From positions 62,001 through 126,000 of the forward strand of contig NZ_VUNS01000001.1 of assembly GCF_009695545.1 (NCBI RefSeq): a stretch of DNA of 64,000 nt, in the 5' to 3' direction. Positions 1-17,793 of this stretch are shown piece by piece. This DNA is from Victivallis lenta. GTDB lineage: Bacteria > Verrucomicrobiota > Lentisphaeria > Victivallales > Victivallaceae. Both the position numbers and the translations under genes were made by a program. The notes under the pieces were generated by a model. The model saw only the letters and a list, made by a program, of their open reading frames with translations. It ran no database searches and had not been told where the DNA came from. The first letter of the stretch is position 1. Each line of letters starts with the position of its first letter.

Positions 1-363
1 CACTCCGAGGATGAACGCGGCAATATCGTCCGTCTGCTGAAGCCGGTGAAATTCCGGTTCCGCGAGAAAACGTTCATCGTGCATGCCGGATTCGAGTGCG
101 ACGGCGTGAGCGTCCCGCGTCCGGCATGGCCGCTGGTGTCGCCGCAGATCGATCCGCGCAGCCTCCGGGCCGGAATCGCGCACGACTACATTTACCGGGT
201 TCAGCCGGAGGGCTGGACGCGCGCCGAAGCCGACCTGATGTTTTTGTGTTTCCTGATTGAAGACGGCCTCGCTGTGCCGCGCGCACTGGCCGCCTACGCC
301 GCCGTCCGCGTTTGTGGCTGGAAGGCGTGGAACGACAACCGCAAACTGCTGGAGGGCGCGTAA
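1..363 (+). CDS. DUF1353-like phage protein, 5' end outside window
   Basis: The reading frame is open from the first base, so the true start lies upstream; a GTG at 46 is internal or an alternative start. The 120 visible residues show the pattern of the phage-associated DUF1353 family: a beta-rich opening, AGFECDGVSVPR (the family's AGFxTDxxSVPR segment), then an AHDYIY motif, an RAEADLMF helix and a closing AAVRVCGWKAW. The molecular function of the family is not settled; it is usually found in late tail or lysis-side phage modules. The stop codon overlaps the next start (TAATG), indicating translational coupling with the small membrane protein that follows. Confidence 0.75.
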   Translation, partial: HSEDERGNIVRLLKPVKFRFREKTFIVHAGFECDGVSVPRPAWPLVSPQIDPRSLRAGIAHDYIYRVQPEGWTRAEADLMFLCFLIEDGLAVPRALAAYAAVRVCGWKAWNDNRKLLEGA

Positions 364-578
364 TGGAAACAACCGTTGAAGCGATCGTGAAGCTGCTTGC
401 GGTGATCGTGCCGATTTGCGGCGGCCTGCTCTGGATCATCAAGCAGAACCGCCGGATCGAAAAAAGTCAGGCGGCCATGCTGAAGAAGGTAAACAAGATC
501 GACAAACATAAAGTGTCGTACAAAGTGTGCGACCAGCGCCGGGCTGAATGCCCGTGCAAAACCAGCAAAGGAGACTGA
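363..578 (+). CDS. Small single-span membrane protein of phage module
   Basis: This is a 71-residue protein starting at the ATG that overlaps the previous stop (TAATG). A longer in-frame start at 312 would sit inside the DUF1353-like gene and is less likely. Residues 7-27 form one hydrophobic span (IVKLLAVIVPICGGLLWIIK), followed by a charged, Lys-rich cytoplasmic tail ending in a short Cys-containing segment (CDQRRAECPCK). Size and position between a DUF1353-like gene and a small lipoprotein suggest a holin-accessory or spanin-like component, but no specific family is recognised. The Shine-Dalgarno sequence of the next gene (AAAGGAG) lies over its last codons. Confidence 0.6.
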   Translation: METTVEAIVKLLAVIVPICGGLLWIIKQNRRIEKSQAAMLKKVNKIDKHKVSYKVCDQRRAECPCKTSKGD

Positions 579-582
579 AACC

Positions 583-999
583 ATGAAAAAAATCATCATC
601 GCCCTCGCCGTCATCGCCGCCACGCTGCTGCTGCCGGGATGCAGCCACAACACGGGAGCCTTCACGCTCGGAACCCGGATCAATGCCGGGCTCGATCCGC
701 AGAACGCGACGGCGAACCTCAGCTATACGGACGGCCTGAACGTCGTCGACGTCAGCCGGGAGAACACAAGCTGGGATATCGAAATCGACGCCGACAACGG
801 CGTTTCGGTCGACGACAGTACCGGAACCGTCAAAGGCGTGAAACGCCTGCGCCGCGACGTCGGACCGCAGATCACCGGCTATCTGGTCGACCTCGCGGCC
901 AAAGACCCGGAAATGGCGAAAACGTATGTGAAATCGATGAAACTCTACTGGCAGTACCGCCTCGAAAAGCTGCGGGAGGCAGACAGCCGGACGGAGTGA
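583..999 (+). CDS. Small lipoprotein of phage module
   Basis: This 138-residue protein has a lipoprotein signal peptide: MKK, a hydrophobic run to residue 18, and a lipobox LLPGC with Cys at about 20. The mature part is hydrophilic, rich in Asn, Asp and Thr, and ends in a charged helix (KSMKLYWQYRLEKLREAD). The start is supported by AAAGGAG ten bases upstream. The gene follows the membrane protein by 4 bases in the same operon. A lipoprotein behind a single-span protein recalls two-component spanins, but Rz1 proteins are normally shorter and Pro-rich, so the role is left open. Confidence 0.6.
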   Translation: MKKIIIALAVIAATLLLPGCSHNTGAFTLGTRINAGLDPQNATANLSYTDGLNVVDVSRENTSWDIEIDADNGVSVDDSTGTVKGVKRLRRDVGPQITGYLVDLAAKDPEMAKTYVKSMKLYWQYRLEKLREADSRTE

Positions 1000-7983: not shown

Positions 7984-8230
7984 TCAAGGCTGTTCCGACA
8001 GAAAGCCCGGTTCCAGCAGGGAGCTGAAAATTTCGCCGATATCGTCCCGCGCGGATTCCGGAACTTCGGAGAACTCCCGCCGGAGTATGAAAAAAAACAT
8101 GTTCCCGGTCGGCGCCCGGCGAAGCATTCTCCCATATGATTTCAGCCACGACGTTCATACCGAACGACTTGCCGGTTTCGGCGCTGAAAAGTACCGCACC
8201 TATCTCTTCTTCGTCGCGGTAAACCGTCAT
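7984..8230 (-). pseudogene. PqqD-like (RiPP recognition element) gene, frameshifted at an 8-base homopolymer
   Basis: From the ATG at 8230 the first frame reads a PqqD-type N-terminal half (EEIGAVLFSAETGKSFGMN, then VVAEIIWE). It loses similarity immediately after a run of eight A/T bases at 8090-8097. One base out of frame, the rest of the domain follows: ILRREFSEVPESARDDIGEI, FSSLLEPGFL, then TGA at 7984-7986. Deleting one base of the run restores a continuous domain of about 81 residues. PqqD-family proteins bind RiPP leader peptides and present them to modifying enzymes. The cause could be a true disabling mutation, a sequencing error in the homopolymer, or +1 slippage. The ATG overlaps the stop of the upstream ORF (ATGA), as in an operon. 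Confidence 0.72.
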
Positions 8231-8493
8231 GGGAGCAGCCTGACCGCGTCGACGGCAAAGCCGATCACCGATTCATTGCAGGAGATCAATCCATGCGCCA
8301 TGACGACTTTCACGGCACGAAGCGCTCCCTCGGCAGAAACCGGAGCACCGCCGCCAATTGTCGCGGCCGGGTTCCGCGGCCGGCCGCGACAACTCCTCCC
8401 GAAGCCATATTTTACCGAACCCGGCGAAGAGCGTCCGCCGCTCTTTCGCCGTTTCGCATGCGCGGTTGGAGGCGCCGCTGCTGCTGGAGCAGT
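8227..8493 (-). pseudogene. Unrecognised degraded ORF in the RiPP-like locus
   Basis: In the frame whose TGA (8227-8229) overlaps the PqqD-like ATG, translation is open from 8493 but has no good start codon upstream. The last 35 residues look protein-like (ALRAVKVVMAHGLISC, then NESVIGFAVDAVRLLP), while the upstream part is low-complexity and Arg/Pro-rich. A GTG at about 8310 would give only a 28-residue peptide. I interpret this as the 3' end of a decayed gene translated just before the PqqD-like gene; the family is not recognised. Other frames across 8300-8560 are broken by stops. Confidence 0.3.
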
Positions 8494-8564
8494 TCAAATC
8501 GCAACGCGCAGCCGGTGCCCTTCCGGCAAAATAAGATGTGAAAAAGCGGACGCTTGATTCGAAC

Positions 8565-8738
8565 CTACTCCGGCCCGCCGTCCGAACCGGAGATGCAGGG
8601 GTCCGGCCCCGGATCATCATCCGGGCCTCCGATGCAGCTGTTTCCTTTGACTGCGAACGCCTTCCAGTGTTCAAAATCGATGATTTCCGGTTTTTCATAG
8701 ACCAATTTGGCTTCTGCTTCTCTCATCTTGGCAAACAT
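8565..8738 (-). CDS. Putative RiPP precursor peptide
   Basis: This 57-codon ORF begins 8 bases after the stop of the 1855-residue gene; a perfect AAGGAGGT lies directly after that stop. The ATG at 8738 is very close to the ribosome site and the in-frame ATG at 8726 is 13 bases from it; either may be used. The N-terminal half is leader-like, with the motif LVYEKPEIIDFEHWKAF; KPxI/KPxV leaders of this kind precede cores modified by radical SAM or similar enzymes. The C-terminal half is a small core rich in Gly, Asp and Pro with two Cys (NSCIGGPDDD and PDPCISGSDGG). A PqqD-like leader-binding gene lies downstream on the same strand. The assignment rests on pattern and context; no modifying enzyme is in the window. 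Confidence 0.6.
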   Translation of the reverse strand: MFAKMREAEAKLVYEKPEIIDFEHWKAFAVKGNSCIGGPDDDPGPDPCISGSDGGPE

Positions 8739-8746
8739 TACCTCCT

Positions 8747-11700
8747 TTACACTATTTTACTCACACCCAGCGTATTGTCGCCGACAATGCCGAACTGCCA
8801 CTTGCGGTCCGAGTCGACCCAGGCGTTGAGATCGGAGTCCCATGCGCCTGTCGTGCCGTTGAAGAACACGGTATTGCTCAGGTTATTCCAGCCGTTGATG
8901 ACGTTTGCGCTTCCGCCGGCGATCACCGTCGCCGACCTGAAGCCGTCCGTGTTGAAGTTGAGATTGAATGTGTCGCCGGCAAAACCGCCGTTTCCGGAAT
9001 CCCAGGTCAATGCCGTCCGGCCGTCGGCCAGTCCGAAATTCCATTCCGCGACACCGCTCAGATAACCGCCATGGTTGCTCGACAGATGCACTGCGCTGTC
9101 GGCGGAAACGGTCACCGTGTCGAAATAGGCGAGAGTGGCGGTGATGGTCCCTGTGAAACCGGTCAGATTCAAAGTCCGGGTTCCGCCTACGCCGCCGCCC
9201 TGGTTGGAAGGAGCGCCGCCGACCACAAACGCGCCGGTACTGAAGACAAGATTCGAACCGAGACCGGTAATTGTGATCGAGGCGTCTCCGGTGACTGTCG
9301 CATTATTCGAGCCGCCGGCATAGACGGAGTTTGTGGTAATCACGTTGGCGCCGCTGCAATTCAGCGTGATGCCGGTGCTGCCGTTCACAATCGAGACCCC
9401 GCTTCCGGTGGTGATGCCGCCGCCGAAGATGTGCCCGAAGGTCCCCCCGTTGATTACAATCTCCGTGTCGCCATAGACATAGGAAGCCCCGCCATCCGCC
9501 GCATGCCCGCCGCCGTAAAGCTTGCCGGAGACGCTGCCGCCGTTGATGGTAATCGAAGTCCCCCCGTAGACGGTTGTACTGCCGGTTCCGAAAGCTGCGC
9601 CGCCGCCGGCGACCGTCAGGACGGATGTCGTGCCGTCGATGGTGACAACCGCGCCCTTTTCGCTCATGCCGGAATTGCCGACAATGACGGTGCCGTTCGA
9701 CTGGCTCCGGCCTCCGCCATAGATGCCGATATCGCCGCGGGTGTAATTGGTCAGCCTGATCGCAGCGCCGCCGATGAGCGTGGACGTGCTGTCGGCTCCG
9801 GCATAACCGCCGCCGTAGATATAATTGAGCTGTGCATTGCCGCCGTTCACGGAGATATCGGTTCTTCCCGTATTGACAGCCGTCCCGCCGAGCGCATAGC
9901 CGCCGCCGTAGATCATTCCGACTCGGGCCGCGTCGGAAATTGTGATGGCCGCATCGCCGTAGACGGTCGCGCTGCCGCCGCTGACCGCATAACCGCCGCC
10001 GGTGATGCTGCCGAGCCGGCTGCCGCCGCTGACTGTCAACGACACTCCGGCATTGTTCGACGACGTTCCGATTTCGGAGTGCGCCCCCGCACCGGTGGCG
10101 TAGCCGCCGAGCATGGTGAAACCGGAAGTGTCCGTTCCGTTCAAAGTCAATACCGAACCGCCCTCGATGGTGACGACCGCTCCGCTGCCGGAGGCGTAAC
10201 CGCCGGCAAACAGAATGCCGGACAAGGTAACCGCGCCGATCGACAGATAAGCTTTCCCGGTCACCGTGGTGGTTCCGGAGACAGTGCGGTAACCGCCCAT
10301 GTAAATCCGGCCGGAAGCCGCGCCGGAGGCCGCGCCGTTCCGGATCAGGTTGAGCCGGATGTCGCCGTATATCGTGGAGTTTCCGCCGGCGCCGCTGCCG
10401 TTGCGGGTACCGAGAACGATATTGTAGGCGCTGCCGTAGGCCGGGGAGTCGATCGTAACCGTGATCGCGTCTCCGGTTCCGGCCGCGGTATTGACGTCGC
10501 CGGTTCCTCCGGCGTAAATGAACTTGTCCGCGGCGGCGCAGCCGGCGGTGAGCGCGATGCTGATTTTCCCGAACACGTCGCCGCCGCTGCCTCCGCCGTA
10601 GATGTCGCCCTTGAAGTCGGCGTTGATCTCCAGTGCGGTGCTGCCGTAGACGTCGCCGTTTCTGCCGCCGCCGTAAATGTCGCCGTCCACCGTGGTGTTG
10701 AGAACCAGTCTGGCATTGCCCGTCACGTTTCCGCCGTTGCCGCCGGCAAACGCTTCACCGGTGATGTTGCCGCCGGTCAGAGTCAGGGTCGTGTCGCCTT
10801 CGACCAGAGAGTTCTTTCCGCCGCCGTAAACATCGGTCACGGAACCGTTCAGAATGTTGACGACAGCTCCGCCGGAGACCACCGCACCATCCCGGCCGCC
10901 GCCGTAAATGCCGCCGGAAATCCTGGTGCCTGCGTTATCCAGAGTCACCTCGGTTCCCTTCAGGACTGCCGCGCCGCTGCCGTGACCGCCGCCGTAAACG
11001 TCGCCGGTGATTTCACTGTAGTCCAGCGTGACCGCGGCGCTGCCGCCTACGACGCCGTTGAAGCCGCCGCCGTAGATGTTGCCCGTCAGACCGCCCCAGC
11101 TGCCGCTGTTTCCGATCAACACGTCGACAAGCGTATCACCGCTTACGTTGCCGTTCAGCCCGCCGCCGTAAACATTGCCGGTCAACTGAGTCCAGCCCAG
11201 CACGACCGTCGCGCCGCCGGTGACATCGGCCGTGTTGCCGCCGCCGTAGATGTCGAAGCCCGGCGCGCCGCCGTCCACCTCGACCCGTGCATCGCCGACA
11301 ACCTCGGCTCCGTCGCAGCCGCCGCCGAAAACCGCGCCGGTGATGTTGTCGCTCTGCTTGATCACGACCTGCGTTCCGCCTGTAACGGCGGCGGCCGTGC
11401 CGCTGCCGCCGCCGTAGACATCGGCCGCGCCGCCGCCGCTGATGTTGACGACGGCTCCACTTGCAACGCTCGCGTCTCTGCCGCCGCCGAAGACGTCTCC
11501 GTGAACGGTCGCGCCGGTCAGGGTCACCTTCGTGCCGCCGCCTATGCCGCCTGAACTGCCGCCGCCGTAAACGCTGCCGGAGACAACAGCTCCGCTGCCA
11601 AGCGCAACCGTCGCGCCGCCGGTCACGGCGGCCGTTCCGCCTCCTCCGTAGACACTGCCGGTCACCACCCCCGCATTGACGCCGACGGCCGTTGTTCCAT

Positions 11701-14314
11701 TGACGGTAGCGCCGGTTCCGGTTCCGCCGCCGTAGACATCGCCGCCGACGCTGCCGCCGCCGATGGTGACGACGGCTCCGCCCGTGACGGACGCGCCGAC
11801 GCCGCCGCCGTAAACATTGCCGGTCACGCGTCCCGCGGCAACGGTGACGGCCGTTCCGCCGGTGACCGCGCCGCCTTCGCCGCCGCCGTAGACATTGGCT
11901 GCGGTGCCGTTCCTGATATTGACGACAGTGCCGTTCTGAACCGCCGCGCCGTTCCGGCCGCCGCCGTAAATGCCGCCGGAAACAACAGCTCCGGCATTAT
12001 CCAGATTGATCAGAGTCCCGCCGGCGACCACCGAGGCGCTGCCGGTTCCGCCGCCGTAAATATTGCCCTCGATATTACCGTAATCCAGAAAAATCTCGGC
12101 CTTTCCGCCGACTCTTCCGTTGCTGCCGCCGCCGTGGACATCGCCCGTCAAACCGCCCCAGGCGTCATTTCCGGCGTTTATTCTGACATAAGTGCCGCTG
12201 GACACATTGCCGTTTTTGCCGCCGCCGTAGACATTGCCGGTCAGCTTGCTCGCATCCACCAGCACATTCGTGCTTCCGCCCACATCAGACGCATCGCCTC
12301 CGCCGTAAACGTCATATTTCGGCGCACTGCCGGTCACGGTGACCTTGGTATCGCCCGTAACGGTCGCGCCGTTTTTGCCGCCGCCGTAAACCGTGCCGCT
12401 GCTTAAAGAGCGGGAAAGCGTGACTTCCGTGCCGGCAACGGTCGCACCGGTTCCGTTGCCGCCGCCGTAAATCGCGGCGGAAAACCCGCCGGCGGCATCC
12501 AGCAGAACGGTCGCCTTGCCGCCGACCTTCCCGCTGCTGCCGCCGCCGAACAGCTGCCAGCCGGCAGCGGCAATCGTGCTTTGCTTGAGATGAAGCAACG
12601 TGCCGCCCTGCACATCGGCATTGTCGCCGCCCGCGTAAATCGTGCCGGAAAAATTCATCTGCCCTTCGACCAGTTCGACGGTCGTGCCGCCGTTCACCTT
12701 CGCGCCGTCTTTGCCGCCGCCGTAAATCGCGCCGGAGAATGACCGGTCTCCGCTCAACGTCACCAGGGTATTTCCCGCGACCGTGCCGCCGGCGCCTCTG
12801 CCGCCGCCGTAAACCGCCGCATTGTCAATATTCACCGTGACGGAAACGGAAGTGTTCTGGCCGACGGCACCGCCGTCGCCGCCGCCGTAAATGACCGCAC
12901 CGTTCAGATTGCTGTTCCTCAGCACCAGATAGGTGCTGCCGCCGACATTCGCGTTCCGGCCTCCGCCGAAAATCGAACCGGTCACGGTGGCGCTCCAGAC
13001 GATGACGAGCGTATTCTTATCGACTGCGGCACCGTTGTCGCCGCCGCCGTAAATATACTGGTAGGTGCCGGTCCCCAGGCTCATAAAAGTTCCGGCCTGA
13101 TAGGTGATTCCATTGTCCGTATAGGAGGCCTCTCCGTACACGGCCGCTCCGGCGCCTTTGCCGCCGCCGAAGAGATTGCCCACGGAAAGAGTGCCGCCTT
13201 CGGGCGATCCGTAGAAGTGGGTATGGCCGACGCGGGAGGAGCCGGAAGTTCCGTCGCCGCCGCCGTAGACATTCGCATAATCGCCGCCGGCAAGCGTCAG
13301 CTCGGATCCGGCGATATGGGAGCCGCTCCTGCCGCCGCCGTAAAGAGTGCCGATCGTGCCGCTGTCGCCTTTGTAAGCGGATTTCTCGGTGCCGGTGCCG
13401 CCGTTCCCGGCGTAAATCGTTTCGATCCCGGTCACTACGCTGCCATCCAGCTTGCCGACGAAAAGCTTGGTTTCAGTGCTGCCGACCGTCAGCGTGACGG
13501 TGCGGATGGCCGCATCCCAGATATAGATGCCGTCAGACACATTTGAAAAGACGAACTCCATATCCGCCGCCTTGACCCCCCACTCGCTCCCGACCCGCGT
13601 CGTGCCGACTTCGACCATCCTGTAACCGGGAATCACGAACGTGGAACCGCTGACCGAGGCGTTCATGGTTGCAACCATGAAACTGAGCACATTGCTGCTG
13701 TAATCGCCCTCGGCAAAGGTCAGGCGGTACACTCCCCATTCGAGAAGCGCATAAACATACTTATCGGCGCCGGGAGAGGCAGTATCGTCATTTACGCCTG
13801 CATCGGCATAGTCGTAGATGGTACCGTTTCCGGTTTCATGGCTTTCGCCGAGAAGGTGGCCGGCCTCATGCGCGACAACCGAAACGACCTCGTCGATTCC
13901 GCCGCGGATATGGTTGATCAGCACAAAGGCGTTGTCGTCGTCGATCCGGTTGCCGACATCGATGGTCTCCGAGATGCCGCGAAAAAGTCCGTACGAGTCG
14001 AAAGCATCGGTGGAGCCGACATAAATGGTGGAGTAACTGCCGGCATCTTCCGGAAGTTCGGCCGTAAAGACGATACTCCCGTCCGCAAAAAGTTCGTTCA
14101 ACGCGGCGACGACATACGCCTGCTCCTCTCCGGAAAAAGAGGCGGCGTGCAAGGTAATATCGCTCAGCGACACCAGTTCGTTGTCGAATTCCAGATCGGT
14201 GCCGCCGGAAAAGTCGACATAGAAATACTTCTTCTCGTAAGAAGAATTTTCATATGTCGCGCTGTCGCCGATTGCGATATCGCCGAGCCGGTGTCTGGCT
14301 AAAGTAGATTGCAT
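8747..14314 (-). CDS. Giant metzincin-motif protein with YGGG repeats
   Basis: This is a 1855-residue protein. The N-terminal region (1-320) carries HEAGHLLGESH at 149-159, an exact HExxHxxGxxH zinc signature of metzincin proteases. From about 320 to 1560 there are roughly 45 repeats of 20-35 residues, each opening with YGGG, FGGG or YAGG and continuing VxGxTxVxVxxGxVxG; this Gly/Val/Thr pattern suggests a beta-helix or beta-roll stalk. The C-terminal 250 residues are non-repetitive (DSDLNAWVDSDRKWQFGIVG). There is no N-terminal signal peptide and no autotransporter barrel, so export could be by a type I-like route. The start at 14314 lacks a strong ribosome site. Two copies of a promoter-like element lie upstream, and a RiPP-precursor-like ORF follows. 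Confidence 0.8.
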   Translation of the reverse strand: MQSTLARHRLGDIAIGDSATYENSSYEKKYFYVDFSGGTDLEFDNELVSLSDITLHAASFSGEEQAYVVAALNELFADGSIVFTAELPEDAGSYSTIYVGSTDAFDSYGLFRGISETIDVGNRIDDDNAFVLINHIRGGIDEVVSVVAHEAGHLLGESHETGNGTIYDYADAGVNDDTASPGADKYVYALLEWGVYRLTFAEGDYSSNVLSFMVATMNASVSGSTFVIPGYRMVEVGTTRVGSEWGVKAADMEFVFSNVSDGIYIWDAAIRTVTLTVGSTETKLFVGKLDGSVVTGIETIYAGNGGTGTEKSAYKGDSGTIGTLYGGGRSGSHIAGSELTLAGGDYANVYGGGDGTSGSSRVGHTHFYGSPEGGTLSVGNLFGGGKGAGAAVYGEASYTDNGITYQAGTFMSLGTGTYQYIYGGGDNGAAVDKNTLVIVWSATVTGSIFGGGRNANVGGSTYLVLRNSNLNGAVIYGGGDGGAVGQNTSVSVTVNIDNAAVYGGGRGAGGTVAGNTLVTLSGDRSFSGAIYGGGKDGAKVNGGTTVELVEGQMNFSGTIYAGGDNADVQGGTLLHLKQSTIAAAGWQLFGGGSSGKVGGKATVLLDAAGGFSAAIYGGGNGTGATVAGTEVTLSRSLSSGTVYGGGKNGATVTGDTKVTVTGSAPKYDVYGGGDASDVGGSTNVLVDASKLTGNVYGGGKNGNVSSGTYVRINAGNDAWGGLTGDVHGGGSNGRVGGKAEIFLDYGNIEGNIYGGGTGSASVVAGGTLINLDNAGAVVSGGIYGGGRNGAAVQNGTVVNIRNGTAANVYGGGEGGAVTGGTAVTVAAGRVTGNVYGGGVGASVTGGAVVTIGGGSVGGDVYGGGTGTGATVNGTTAVGVNAGVVTGSVYGGGGTAAVTGGATVALGSGAVVSGSVYGGGSSGGIGGGTKVTLTGATVHGDVFGGGRDASVASGAVVNISGGGAADVYGGGSGTAAAVTGGTQVVIKQSDNITGAVFGGGCDGAEVVGDARVEVDGGAPGFDIYGGGNTADVTGGATVVLGWTQLTGNVYGGGLNGNVSGDTLVDVLIGNSGSWGGLTGNIYGGGFNGVVGGSAAVTLDYSEITGDVYGGGHGSGAAVLKGTEVTLDNAGTRISGGIYGGGRDGAVVSGGAVVNILNGSVTDVYGGGKNSLVEGDTTLTLTGGNITGEAFAGGNGGNVTGNARLVLNTTVDGDIYGGGRNGDVYGSTALEINADFKGDIYGGGSGGDVFGKISIALTAGCAAADKFIYAGGTGDVNTAAGTGDAITVTIDSPAYGSAYNIVLGTRNGSGAGGNSTIYGDIRLNLIRNGAASGAASGRIYMGGYRTVSGTTTVTGKAYLSIGAVTLSGILFAGGYASGSGAVVTIEGGSVLTLNGTDTSGFTMLGGYATGAGAHSEIGTSSNNAGVSLTVSGGSRLGSITGGGYAVSGGSATVYGDAAITISDAARVGMIYGGGYALGGTAVNTGRTDISVNGGNAQLNYIYGGGYAGADSTSTLIGGAAIRLTNYTRGDIGIYGGGRSQSNGTVIVGNSGMSEKGAVVTIDGTTSVLTVAGGGAAFGTGSTTVYGGTSITINGGSVSGKLYGGGHAADGGASYVYGDTEIVINGGTFGHIFGGGITTGSGVSIVNGSTGITLNCSGANVITTNSVYAGGSNNATVTGDASITITGLGSNLVFSTGAFVVGGAPSNQGGGVGGTRTLNLTGFTGTITATLAYFDTVTVSADSAVHLSSNHGGYLSGVAEWNFGLADGRTALTWDSGNGGFAGDTFNLNFNTDGFRSATVIAGGSANVINGWNNLSNTVFFNGTTGAWDSDLNAWVDSDRKWQFGIVGDNTLGVSKIV
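9440..13370 (-). repeat. Tandem YGGG-coding repeat array
   Basis: This DNA segment inside the giant gene has a GCCGCCGCCGTA-type unit recurring every 60-100 bases, encoding (V/I)YGGG. Within it a higher-order duplication is visible: about 10,805-11,260 and about 11,875-12,325 encode the same order of units, including WGGLTG, LDY, LDNAG and ISGGIYGGGR or VSGGIYGGGR. Units differ enough that this is an old array, not a recent slippage expansion. Confidence 0.85.
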
Positions 14315-14351: not shown

Positions 14352-14376
14352 ATTATATGTTACAATATATGCGGAT
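14352..14376 (-). promoter_or_regulatory. Promoter-like element, proximal copy, before giant gene
   Basis: On the minus strand this reads ATCCGCATATATT, six variable bases, then TATAAT, ending 37 bases before the ATG at 14314. The TATAAT is a perfect -10. The same 25-base arrangement recurs at 14633-14657. No good -35 hexamer is visible, so ATCCGCATATATT may be an activator site or an alternative recognition element. Confidence 0.5.
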
Positions 14377-14632
14377 CATGATGTAATATCAATACTGCCG
14401 AGCAACATTTTACTGTTTTTTTTCGAAATATTTTTCCGAAATACCGACACGGTGAAAAAGAATTTCATTCATCATTGCCGGCAAATGGATTACAAACTCC
14501 TAATCCTCAAGTTCATATTGATTTTTTCAGATAAAACCCGGCATCATTCCGGAAATATCCTGCCCGTCCCCCCCTGTTTCCCGGAACCAGCCGGGATGCG
14601 GACATCACTGCCGCGGCCGGAATGGAAAACGG

Positions 14633-14754: not shown

Positions 14755-17061
14755 TCAGAACTTATCCCCGGAGACGCTCCGGTTTCCTTCGGCGACCAGC
14801 CGGGTCACCGACCTGCCGTCGCTCCAGACACCGGGAAACGGCACAAGCGGGGAAGCGATGTAACAATTGTCGACAATGCTCACCGAGTCGGCATTTTCCA
14901 CAAAAAAACCGGAACGGCGGGGAAACGGGATTTTACGTTCCGTCTGATCCGCGAATGTATTGTTGCGGAATATGACGTTCCGGGCGGAGCTGATGGAGGC
15001 GATCAGCCCGAAACTGTCGATAAACAGATTGTCTTCAAACAGAATATCCGACAGAATCCGGCATTCCGTTTTCAGAATCGAGTCCATATAGACCCCGATC
15101 GTAACCGCTCGCGGCATTCCGTCGTTTTCCGTGTCACACATATGCCGCTTATGCACCTGTTCGAAACGGTTGCCCCGGACCACGATATTGGAGGCGCCGT
15201 AACCTTCGCACCAGGCAGGCCCGTAGCCGGTTTCGATTTTGATCGCCTCCATCTCGTGATGCCGGAACAAATTGTTTTCAACCGTAACATCCCGCGCCAG
15301 CAGAAGAATGCCGCGGGCGCGGTTGTGGTGAAACGAACTGTTCCGGATCATGATGTTGCGGGAATCATAAGCCCGGTTGAAAATGAGCAGGCCGTCTCCC
15401 GGCGTGAGAGGCTGCGGAACCGCCGGGGAATCGAATACGATCTCATAAATGCCGTTCCGGGCGTCTGCCGTGCCGACCTGTTTTATCACCGCCGATTTGC
15501 CGGTGGGTGAGAGGTCGCTGTAACGGAATTCGATCCGGTCGCCCACCCGGTAGTAGCCGTCGTATACGCCCCGCGCTTCTATGCGGTCCGGTTTCATTTG
15601 CGTTATATAAGCAGAATTGTCGTGAATGTTGATGCAGTCATCTCCGGATCTGCCGAACTCGCAATCCTCGATTTTCAGGTATCCCTTGGACCGGAAGACA
15701 TGCAGGATATCCGCCGTACAGGTGATGGCGCGACGCGGTTCGTTTTCAGGGGGAGCTACACGGACCCGGCGGAACTGCCCATACTGCACCCCGTCCGCGA
15801 TGAAACCAATGCCGGCGCAGGAATAGAGATTGATGTCTTCGAAAGTGATATGACGGCTTTGCCTGATTGAAAAACAATGCATCTCATAATTGTAATGCCG
15901 CATCACAAAAAGACTGCCGGGCACATACTTGCCGGAGTTGCCGACCTGAACCCGCAAAATGTTGTCCGCCAACCAGGTTTTCGGGGCAGGATGCAAACAG
16001 TCAAATCCATTCTCAATTCCGATCGAACGGGAAACCGGGTCATAACTGCTGAGGACGCTGACCCGAACATCCCGGCGCGGAAAACGATCATATTCGACAA
16101 ACTTGAAATCGACCGTCCCGGGATCGGTACGCATTACCTCAACGACACTGGCCAGCGGGTCCGCGGCCCAATCCCAGTCGCAGGATAAATTGCGCAGCAG
16201 GAGCCTTTCGCAATCATTGATCAGAAAAGACTCTTTCTCCGTTCTCAGAAATATGAACTTCGCCCCTTTTCCATCCAATTCGAAATCCCGCATTCCGTCA
16301 AGCATGATCGAAGCGTCGGCGGTAAACCGGTAACTGCCGGGAGCAAGTTCGAGTTTCGCCGCATTCTTTTCCCGGCAGAATGCCAGAGCCCGGTTCAGAG
16401 CGGCGGTATTGTCGGCACTCTCCGGGGAGAAACCGAAGTCGGCTGCGGCAACGACCATTCCCCGGGCGTTTTTCGGCCGTTCCACCTCGAACTCCTTTGC
16501 ACCGGAAGGCAAATTCCGTACCGTTCCGGAAGCCGGAGCCGCATCCGCCACTGCCGGTATGAAAAGCGGCTCGGCAGCAGGGGTGAACCGAAGATTCCTG
16601 ACGGCACCCTTCAGCCGTTTGCTGATATGAATCTGGAATGCGCAATCCTGCTGCGTCCCGGTGCGGAACTGCAGTTCGACCGGCCTGAACTTCGTGCCGT
16701 TGTTCGGCAGGAACCCCGACATCGTGTCGAGCGAATGGTCGCCGGCATGATACGGCCGCGACAGAAGGAAGAAGCGTCCGGCAGCCGCATCCGGTGCAGC
16801 CGCCCGGTATTCAAAGCTGACGAGATAGGAAGTATCCGGCCTGAGCACCCCCGGACGGGTGCGCAGCATCCAGTTCCACTCGCCGTCCAGCCGTGTCGTA
16901 TCGACTTCCAGATTTTCGCCGTGGCCGGAAAGCCGGGCGACGGCCGGGTTCAGGTCGATCCGCTCCCGGTTGCCCAAGTCCTCCGGCTTCGCGCTCCAGC
17001 CGGTCTCCCACCCGAGAGCGACCACGGCAATCACAAGAATCCATTTCCGCATGGCAGTCAT
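14755..17061 (-). CDS. Secreted right-handed beta-helix glycosidase, GH110-like
   Basis: This 768-residue protein has a Sec signal peptide (MRKWILVIAVVALGWETGWSA). After a beta-sandwich-like N-terminal part (to about 200), the ADFGFSPESADNTAALNRAL segment opens a pectate-lyase-superfamily beta-helix with repeated turns (IMIRNSSFHHN, VTVENNLFRHHE, IVVRGNRFEQVH, VIFRNNTF). The stretch RAITCTADILHVFRSKGYLK followed by IEDCEFGRSGDDCINIHD matches the layout of GH110 alpha-1,3-galactosidases, whose paired Asp residues are catalytic. GH110 is the best guess; another beta-helix family is possible. GAGGAG precedes the ATG at 17061; an ATG nine bases in is the alternative. It follows the pseudopilin gene by 12 bases. 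Confidence 0.75.
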   Translation of the reverse strand: MTAMRKWILVIAVVALGWETGWSAKPEDLGNRERIDLNPAVARLSGHGENLEVDTTRLDGEWNWMLRTRPGVLRPDTSYLVSFEYRAAAPDAAAGRFFLLSRPYHAGDHSLDTMSGFLPNNGTKFRPVELQFRTGTQQDCAFQIHISKRLKGAVRNLRFTPAAEPLFIPAVADAAPASGTVRNLPSGAKEFEVERPKNARGMVVAAADFGFSPESADNTAALNRALAFCREKNAAKLELAPGSYRFTADASIMLDGMRDFELDGKGAKFIFLRTEKESFLINDCERLLLRNLSCDWDWAADPLASVVEVMRTDPGTVDFKFVEYDRFPRRDVRVSVLSSYDPVSRSIGIENGFDCLHPAPKTWLADNILRVQVGNSGKYVPGSLFVMRHYNYEMHCFSIRQSRHITFEDINLYSCAGIGFIADGVQYGQFRRVRVAPPENEPRRAITCTADILHVFRSKGYLKIEDCEFGRSGDDCINIHDNSAYITQMKPDRIEARGVYDGYYRVGDRIEFRYSDLSPTGKSAVIKQVGTADARNGIYEIVFDSPAVPQPLTPGDGLLIFNRAYDSRNIMIRNSSFHHNRARGILLLARDVTVENNLFRHHEMEAIKIETGYGPAWCEGYGASNIVVRGNRFEQVHKRHMCDTENDGMPRAVTIGVYMDSILKTECRILSDILFEDNLFIDSFGLIASISSARNVIFRNNTFADQTERKIPFPRRSGFFVENADSVSIVDNCYIASPLVPFPGVWSDGRSVTRLVAEGNRSVSGDKF

Positions 17062-17073
17062 TTTCTCCTCGCT

Positions 17074-17793
17074 TTAATTCACCAGTTTCTTCACGCTTCC
17101 CGCCTCGTCATACACCTCTTTGAACTGCATCGGAGAAGCCTGAAGTTCAGCATCGGAGCGGGCAGCCACATGGCCGTCGGGATATCCGGCCACCGCCCTG
17201 TTGCGGTGGAGAAGCCCGGCGGCACCTTTCCAGTCCGGAAGAATCTGCGCCGGAGAGAACGCATAAATCATCTTGTTCGATCCCATCACCCCGCAGGAGG
17301 TGTCGATCATGATCTCCGTCCGGGAAGGCAATTTCATTCGGTGCAGGCTCATCACCCGGATCTCCGTCGTGACGCCGGGATGGGAGAAAGCCGAAATCTC
17401 GAGATAAAAATCTCCCAGCACGGCTTTCTTGGTCGCGTAATCAGGATCATACCAGCCATCCTGTATCCGGTACACACCGTACGTCATAGTCGGCCATCCC
17501 CAGTCCGCAGAGGAAGGGAAGGAAGCCGGGCAGGTGAGTACATTTTTTCCGATATACCCCTGGTTGACAAGCACTTCCCCCCAGAACTCCACACTCTGGC
17601 TCACAATGAAGTTGTTGTTGTCGTCCGCATACAGCAGTTGAGCAGTCATGCACTGTTTCTGATTATTGATGCACTGGGAGGTTTTTGCCTTCGCACGCGC
17701 CATATTCAGCGCCGGCAGCAGCATCGAGGCGAGAATCGCGATGATCGCAATAACAACCAGCAACTCGATCAAAGTGAACTTTTTTCTCCGCAT
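17074..17793 (-). CDS. Type II pseudopilin-like protein with C-terminal DGH motif
   Basis: This 239-residue protein begins [20 protein letters not shown], the prepilin peptidase site and hydrophobic helix of type IV pilin / type II secretion pseudopilins (cleavage before Phe, Glu at +5). A globular domain with paired Cys follows, and near the end comes [17 protein letters not shown], the H...DGH motif shared by the other three pilin-like genes here. The start at 17793 is chosen because the prepilin signal begins there, with GGACGGAG upstream. It is directly upstream of, and co-directional with, the secreted beta-helix glycosidase. Confidence 0.9.

Follow-up and report, generated by a model that had tools for sequence, protein, structure and literature searches.

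A stretch of 64,000 nucleotides from contig 1 of the Victivallis lenta genome (5.5 Mb; order Victivallales), here called the window, carries between positions 7984 and 14314 of its minus strand what is probably a decayed peptide-modification operon resembling the SynChlorMet (SCM) cassette. Its first gene encodes a giant protein, probably a surface protein exported by type I secretion. The maturation genes of such a cassette encode ScmE, a radical S-adenosylmethionine (radical-SAM) enzyme, ScmC, an HPr-kinase-like (HPrK-like) protein, and ScmD, a PqqD-family protein. We identified complete paralogues of the operon in the same genome, and homology searches place the gene set repeatedly within the order, alongside type I secretion genes. 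The recurrent set, which consists of a giant, a peptide, a PqqD-like protein, a kinase, often a radical-SAM enzyme, and sometimes a type I exporter, appears to be undescribed so far. We interpret it as a variant of the SCM cassette tied to giant secreted proteins, of the kind that makes ribosomally synthesized and post-translationally modified peptides (RiPPs).

Giant, peptide, and remnants of the maturation genes

The giant exoprotein gene (8747 to 14314, minus strand) is an intact open reading frame (ORF) of 1855 amino acids. The N-terminal region of the product holds a metzincin-like domain with the sequence HEAGHLLGESH and no Sec signal, and is followed by 37 [YFA]GGG repeats of about 27 residues each. 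Gly, Ser, Thr, and Asn (G/S/T/N) make up 47% of the protein, which is poor in Cys (three residues). The gene for the precursor-type peptide (8565 to 8738, minus strand; 57 amino acids) is also intact and starts 8 bases past the giant stop, the spacing given in the initial annotation; its ribosome-binding site, AAAGGAGG, matches the consensus and overlaps that stop. The peptide has a leader (YEKPEIIDF), a conserved G-x-S motif followed by Cys (KGNSC), and a tail that is acidic, rich in Gly and Pro, and contains a second Cys. It shares 57% identity (E = 6.6e-16) with the paralogous peptide at the same place in the sister locus on contig 3, and is matched by an order-wide peptide profile of which it is itself part (E = 1.5e-17); a Pfam scan of it gave no match. 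By sequence, the two genes are intact and coupled.

The remaining genes are broken. An ScmE remnant (8351 to 8533, minus strand) was detected by tblastn with the contig-3 ScmE (E = 9e-6); it covers the N-terminal part with an internal deletion, and its CxxxCxxC motif has degenerated to CDLNCSSS, with loss of the third Cys. The 3' end of ScmC (8227 to 8283, minus strand) survives in another frame than the ScmE remnant, as an 18-residue match with 50% identity to residues 249 to 266 of the contig-3 ScmC. It ends exactly at the ATGA junction (8230 to 8227), where the ScmC stop falls on the ScmD start; this 4-base overlap is common to the window and contig-3 loci. The ScmD pseudogene (7984 to 8230, minus strand) begins at 8230 and is frameshifted at a run of eight T residues (8097 to 8090). 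Its two frames have 64% and 53% identity to the contig-3 ScmD (joint E = 6e-22) and, when read as one, match Pfam PqqD at 8e-6 and the NCBIfam ScmD model (TIGR04248) at 9e-10, which bears out the earlier assignment of this gene as PqqD-like. Just 334 bases separate the peptide gene from the ATGA junction, an interval that holds both enzymes on contig 3. Because ScmE is degenerate and deleted, ScmC is reduced to its tail, and ScmD is frameshifted, we read the window locus as a fossil SCM-like cassette with no open genes left but those of the giant and the peptide. The four consecutive ORFs of the initial annotation thus resolve into two intact and three broken genes, the third ORF being the fossil end of ScmC and the fourth the frameshifted ScmD; the overlap reported between these last two ORFs is present.

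A sigma-70-like promoter candidate (TTGATA-17-TATATT; 14364 to 14392, minus strand) lies 50 bases 5' of the giant ATG; it scored 10/12 in a consensus scan in which promoter-type matches were no more numerous in the window than in shuffled sequences. An AlphaFold model of the first 329 residues of the giant, run with no alignment, gave a predicted local distance difference test score of 33.5 and was not used. At 14755 to 17793 of the window, a right-handed beta-helix protein is encoded next to a prepilin-type (pseudopilin) gene, a kind of gene that turns up close to many loci in this genome. The left edge of the window (46 to 999) holds small phage-type genes, one of them DUF1353-like by eye, and is possibly a prophage end.

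Sister loci and the peptide family across the order

Contig 3 carries the complete operon, encoding, in order, a giant of 1923 amino acids, a peptide of 54 with the leader YEKPEL, a radical-SAM/SPASM protein of 359, an HPrK-like protein of 286, and a PqqD protein of 93; by hidden Markov model search the last three are closest to ScmE (1e-79), ScmC (8e-30), and ScmD (2e-13), respectively. The same order recurs on contig 4, where the giant has at most 974 amino acids. The run on contig 15 comprises giant, peptide, radical-SAM enzyme, and HPrK-like protein, with no ScmD; contig 6 is limited to giant and peptide, and contig 33 has a giant, an HPrK-like protein, a PqqD protein, and an S24/S26-like protein. 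The hallmark of a RiPP locus, a leader-core precursor beside a RiPP recognition element (RRE) and a modifying enzyme, is thus found on contigs 3 and 4 and, lacking ScmD, on contig 15; the window enzymes are dead. The paralogous peptide and the sister operons support the proposal in the initial annotation that a RiPP-type precursor and a PqqD-type protein share a transcription unit with the giant. That annotation had missed both the dead maturation genes of the window and the radical-SAM enzyme and HPrK-like kinase of the complete copies.

A survey of 137 genomes of the order with a peptide profile placed the family in many genera. In an alignment of twelve peptides, Y and P are invariant, mostly as YxxPx[LI], and so is a G, with Ser or Thr one residue past that G in nearly all. 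No NCBIfam model matched any of ten peptides tested, and no Pfam model any of nine. Fifteen of 33 peptide sites lie directly behind a giant of about 970 to 2300 amino acids, with a gap of at most about 90 bases in 14 and of 312 bases on contig 3; six further sites probably belong with these, as they follow a giant end that is contig-cut or fragmentary. The giants ahead of peptides are G/S/T/N-rich, without a Sec signal, and often end in -LA; their N-termini, spread over many genera, are unrelated. ScmC loci served as an independent entry: of 20 such loci, 9 are directly preceded by a G/S/T/N-rich giant (contig-cut in one case), and 8 of these 9 also have the peptide. In one genome (G025), tandem giants (L145:5856-9473 and L145:10926-15704) are each followed by a nearly identical 39-residue peptide, and ScmE accompanies one pair only.

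The peptides differ according to the enzyme beside them: those beside ScmE have a Cys behind the invariant G, and those beside ScmC without ScmE have none there. From the core Cys it was predicted, and recorded beforehand, that ScmE is encoded by G332 and G345 and not by G238, G161, G028, G009, G132, or G138. The prediction was correct in 8/8 genomes, G332 and G345 being the cleanest new tests, since for four of the six negative predictions an earlier search had already listed or implied absence. Over all genomes the association of core Cys with ScmE gave a Fisher p of 2e-5, and within one genus 0.036, both uncorrected for kinship. Because the contig-6 peptide (genome G000) has no Cys, the rule runs one way, with a core Cys found only in genomes encoding ScmE. 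Two peptides (L284 and L287) have a Cys before the conserved G; the genome of L287 (G312) lacks ScmE, and that of L284 (G311) lay outside the ScmE test.

Probable export of the giants, and the metzincin domain

A hydropathy scan found no Sec-type N-termini on the giants, whose 13-residue maxima were at most 1.55, compared with 2.1 to 2.7 in three signal-peptide controls. On contig 21, a PqqD gene adjoins genes for HlyD (TIGR01843) and a HlyB-type ATP-binding cassette (ABC) exporter (TIGR01846); no catalytic Cys was seen in the C39-like domain of this exporter. Genes that look by eye like an anti-sigma kinase and a STAS protein lie directly upstream of this run (L018:8868-9605). Type I secretion genes share a gene run with Scm genes in eight genomes, including G019, G064, G031, G073, G332, G034, and G309, and only in G034 and G309 does a run with the exporter also include both giant and peptide. 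The consecutive genes in G034 encode giant, peptide, ScmC, ScmD, a fusion of S24/S26 protease and nucleotidyltransferase, HlyB, and HlyD. No RTX repeats came up where giants were scanned with Pfam; AIDA-type repeats were found in some. We infer that the giants are probably surface proteins secreted through this type I system, HlyB/HlyD.

The metzincin-like domain of the window giant carries the HExxHxxGxxH motif of a putative peptidase, with a marginal Pfam match (0.034). Homologues of this N-terminal region occur in 35 of the 137 genomes; HExxH is retained wherever the motif could be located, and the third H is often D. The initial annotation had suggested that the metzincin-bearing protein might share regulation with the peptide, process it, or display it, and proposed a survey of gene neighborhoods. 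In that survey the metzincin homologues proved largely to lack the peptide and PqqD genes, while the arrangement of giant plus peptide does recur. Of 28 metzincin giants from other genomes in the order, just 2 are followed by the peptide (the count omits 3 of 31 giant 3' ends, L193, L203, and L215, for which no frame could be assigned), and most giants that precede a peptide are in genomes or loci without a metzincin-like domain. The domain was therefore rejected on homologue neighborhoods as the link between giant and peptide, and is not what joins them. Metzincin-type giants are expanded as paralogues in G197 (11 matches), G252, G141, and G028, and a 5099-residue open frame occurs in G329.

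Relation to known systems and alternative explanations

The loci most resemble the SCM system (NCBIfam TIGR04248-TIGR04251: ScmD, ScmC, ScmE, ScmF). They share with it an operon of ScmE-, ScmC-, and ScmD-type proteins and a precursor with a YxxPxL leader and core Cys; TIGR04250, TIGR04249, and TIGR04248 are the top families for the respective proteins, and for ScmE and ScmC the lead spans many orders of magnitude. They differ in having one radical-SAM enzyme per locus on contigs 3, 4, and 15 and none in some loci, whereas SCM has two (ScmE and ScmF), in a short core with 0 to 3 Cys instead of multiple CxxG units, and in the attached giant exoprotein and HlyB/HlyD system. A scan of named genomes yielded 43 SCM-type loci in other phyla, usually with two radical-SAM genes, ScmD, ScmC, and often an ABC exporter; none of the 43 has a G/S/T/N-rich giant of at least 1000 amino acids. 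A precursor was found in 18 of them (many contigs are cut), typically with KYExPxLxPLGE.AKGSGxC and then several CxxG units. Such multi-CxxG peptides with YxxPxL-type leaders occur near ScmE/ScmF in many phyla (L024, L027, L028, L030-L032, L037, L038, L040, L043, L046-L048, L053, L054, L057, L059, and L060), had no NCBIfam or Pfam match where tested, and are candidates for the precursor of SCM cassettes in general. To our knowledge, the NCBIfam SCM entries state that no precursor has been identified.

Lasso peptide clusters with a split, PqqD-like B1 protein and an HPrK-like kinase (paeninodin, pseudomycoidin, and Bradymonas bsf) are alike in the YxxPxL leader, the PqqD-type RRE, the HPrK-like enzyme and, in some loci, a nucleotidyltransferase. 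In lasso systems the PqqD-type protein binds the YxxPxL leader and stimulates the action of the HPr-kinase-like enzyme toward the precursor (PMC10368454); the phosphate can be further extended by a nucleotidyltransferase (PMC8498205). Neither the radical-SAM enzyme nor the giant of the present loci is a feature of lasso clusters. No asparagine-synthetase-like cyclase (C) and no transglutaminase-like B2 protease turned up among the scanned proteins of intact loci, which covered part of the neighbors. The HlyB/HlyD secretion of large repeat adhesins offers a third comparison, with large, repetitive, Cys-poor proteins that lack a Sec signal, and here HlyB/HlyD in the Scm gene run; it differs in that RiPP-type genes share the operon here and in the lack of RTX repeats noted above. 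In the papers searched, SynChlorMet is not named and nothing joins radical SAM with Lentisphaerae, with HPr kinase, or with Syntrophobacter and Methanocella; the sole match that combines type I secretion with radical SAM and PqqD concerns graspetides. The initial annotation, too, had not recognized the combination, and we found no description of it.

By analogy with the lasso systems, ScmD would bind the YxxPxL leader and hand the peptide to ScmE, which would modify core Cys residues, and to ScmC, which would phosphorylate Ser/Thr, most likely in the conserved G-x-S/T. Where loci encode them, a nucleotidyltransferase would add to the phosphate and the S24/S26-like protease would remove the leader; the product would leave the cell with the giant or through the HlyB/HlyD exporter that the giant uses. 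The window peptide, if made, would be matured in trans by enzymes of contig 3, 4, or 15, and the same may hold for other enzyme-less pairs of giant and peptide (contig 6; genome G028).

Several observations weigh against the reading of the window as a decayed SCM-like operon headed by a type-I-secreted giant. The ScmC match taken alone is short and weak (E = 0.012), and the T8 frameshift alone might be an assembly error; loss of ScmE and ScmC by deletion could hardly be one. The paralogue scores fall under the NCBIfam curated cutoffs (at best 268 of 400 bits for ScmE, 104 of 125 for ScmC, and 50 of 100 for ScmD). Twelve of the 33 peptide sites lack a giant of this class ahead of the peptide, with several peptides standing alone before ScmE; the peptide is scarce behind metzincin giants elsewhere in the order (the 2 of 28 above), and the exporter is mostly encoded away from the giants.

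Those 12 peptides, and the lack of giants at the 43 loci outside the order, also suit the rival we take most seriously, without thinking it probable: that the peptide is a free RiPP of the usual kind, a bacteriocin or signal, sharing only transcript and exporter with the adhesin and having no functional tie to it. It fits poorly with two counts: giants whose N-termini are unrelated, spread over many genera, stand immediately before 15 of the 33 peptides and probably before 6 more, and a giant lies directly upstream in 9 of 20 ScmC loci. A chance operon would not be expected to produce this. An unlikely alternative role for the Scm-modified peptide is that of a secretion accessory, gating or licensing the type I exporter for the giant. 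HlyB/HlyD are indeed immediate neighbors of ScmD on contig 21, as they are in three genomes from another genus, but giants with similar C-termini and no nearby peptide are numerous. Processing of the peptide by the metzincin, which would explain their shared operon in the window and on contigs 3 and 6, seems very improbable: peptide-associated giants in several genomes have no metzincin match, and the S24/S26-like protein of several loci is a simpler leader protease. GC-rich DNA is prone to shadow ORF calls, yet we regard spurious ORFs adjacent by chance as refuted, for practical purposes, by the close paralogue at the same place, the consensus ribosome-binding site, and the order-wide family.

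Within the preferred reading, of a decayed SCM-like operon with a giant as its first gene, we can only tentatively suggest that the whole RiPP-type machinery (PqqD protein, HPrK-like kinase, radical-SAM enzyme or nucleotidyltransferase, and S24/S26-like protease) serves the type-I-secreted giants; the modified peptide would then be co-exported and either attached to the giant or needed for its display. The loci supply candidate precursors for SCM radical-SAM cassettes, and they link SCM-type machinery to giant secreted proteins in a bacterial order rich in uncultured members, the source bacterium itself being of the gut type.

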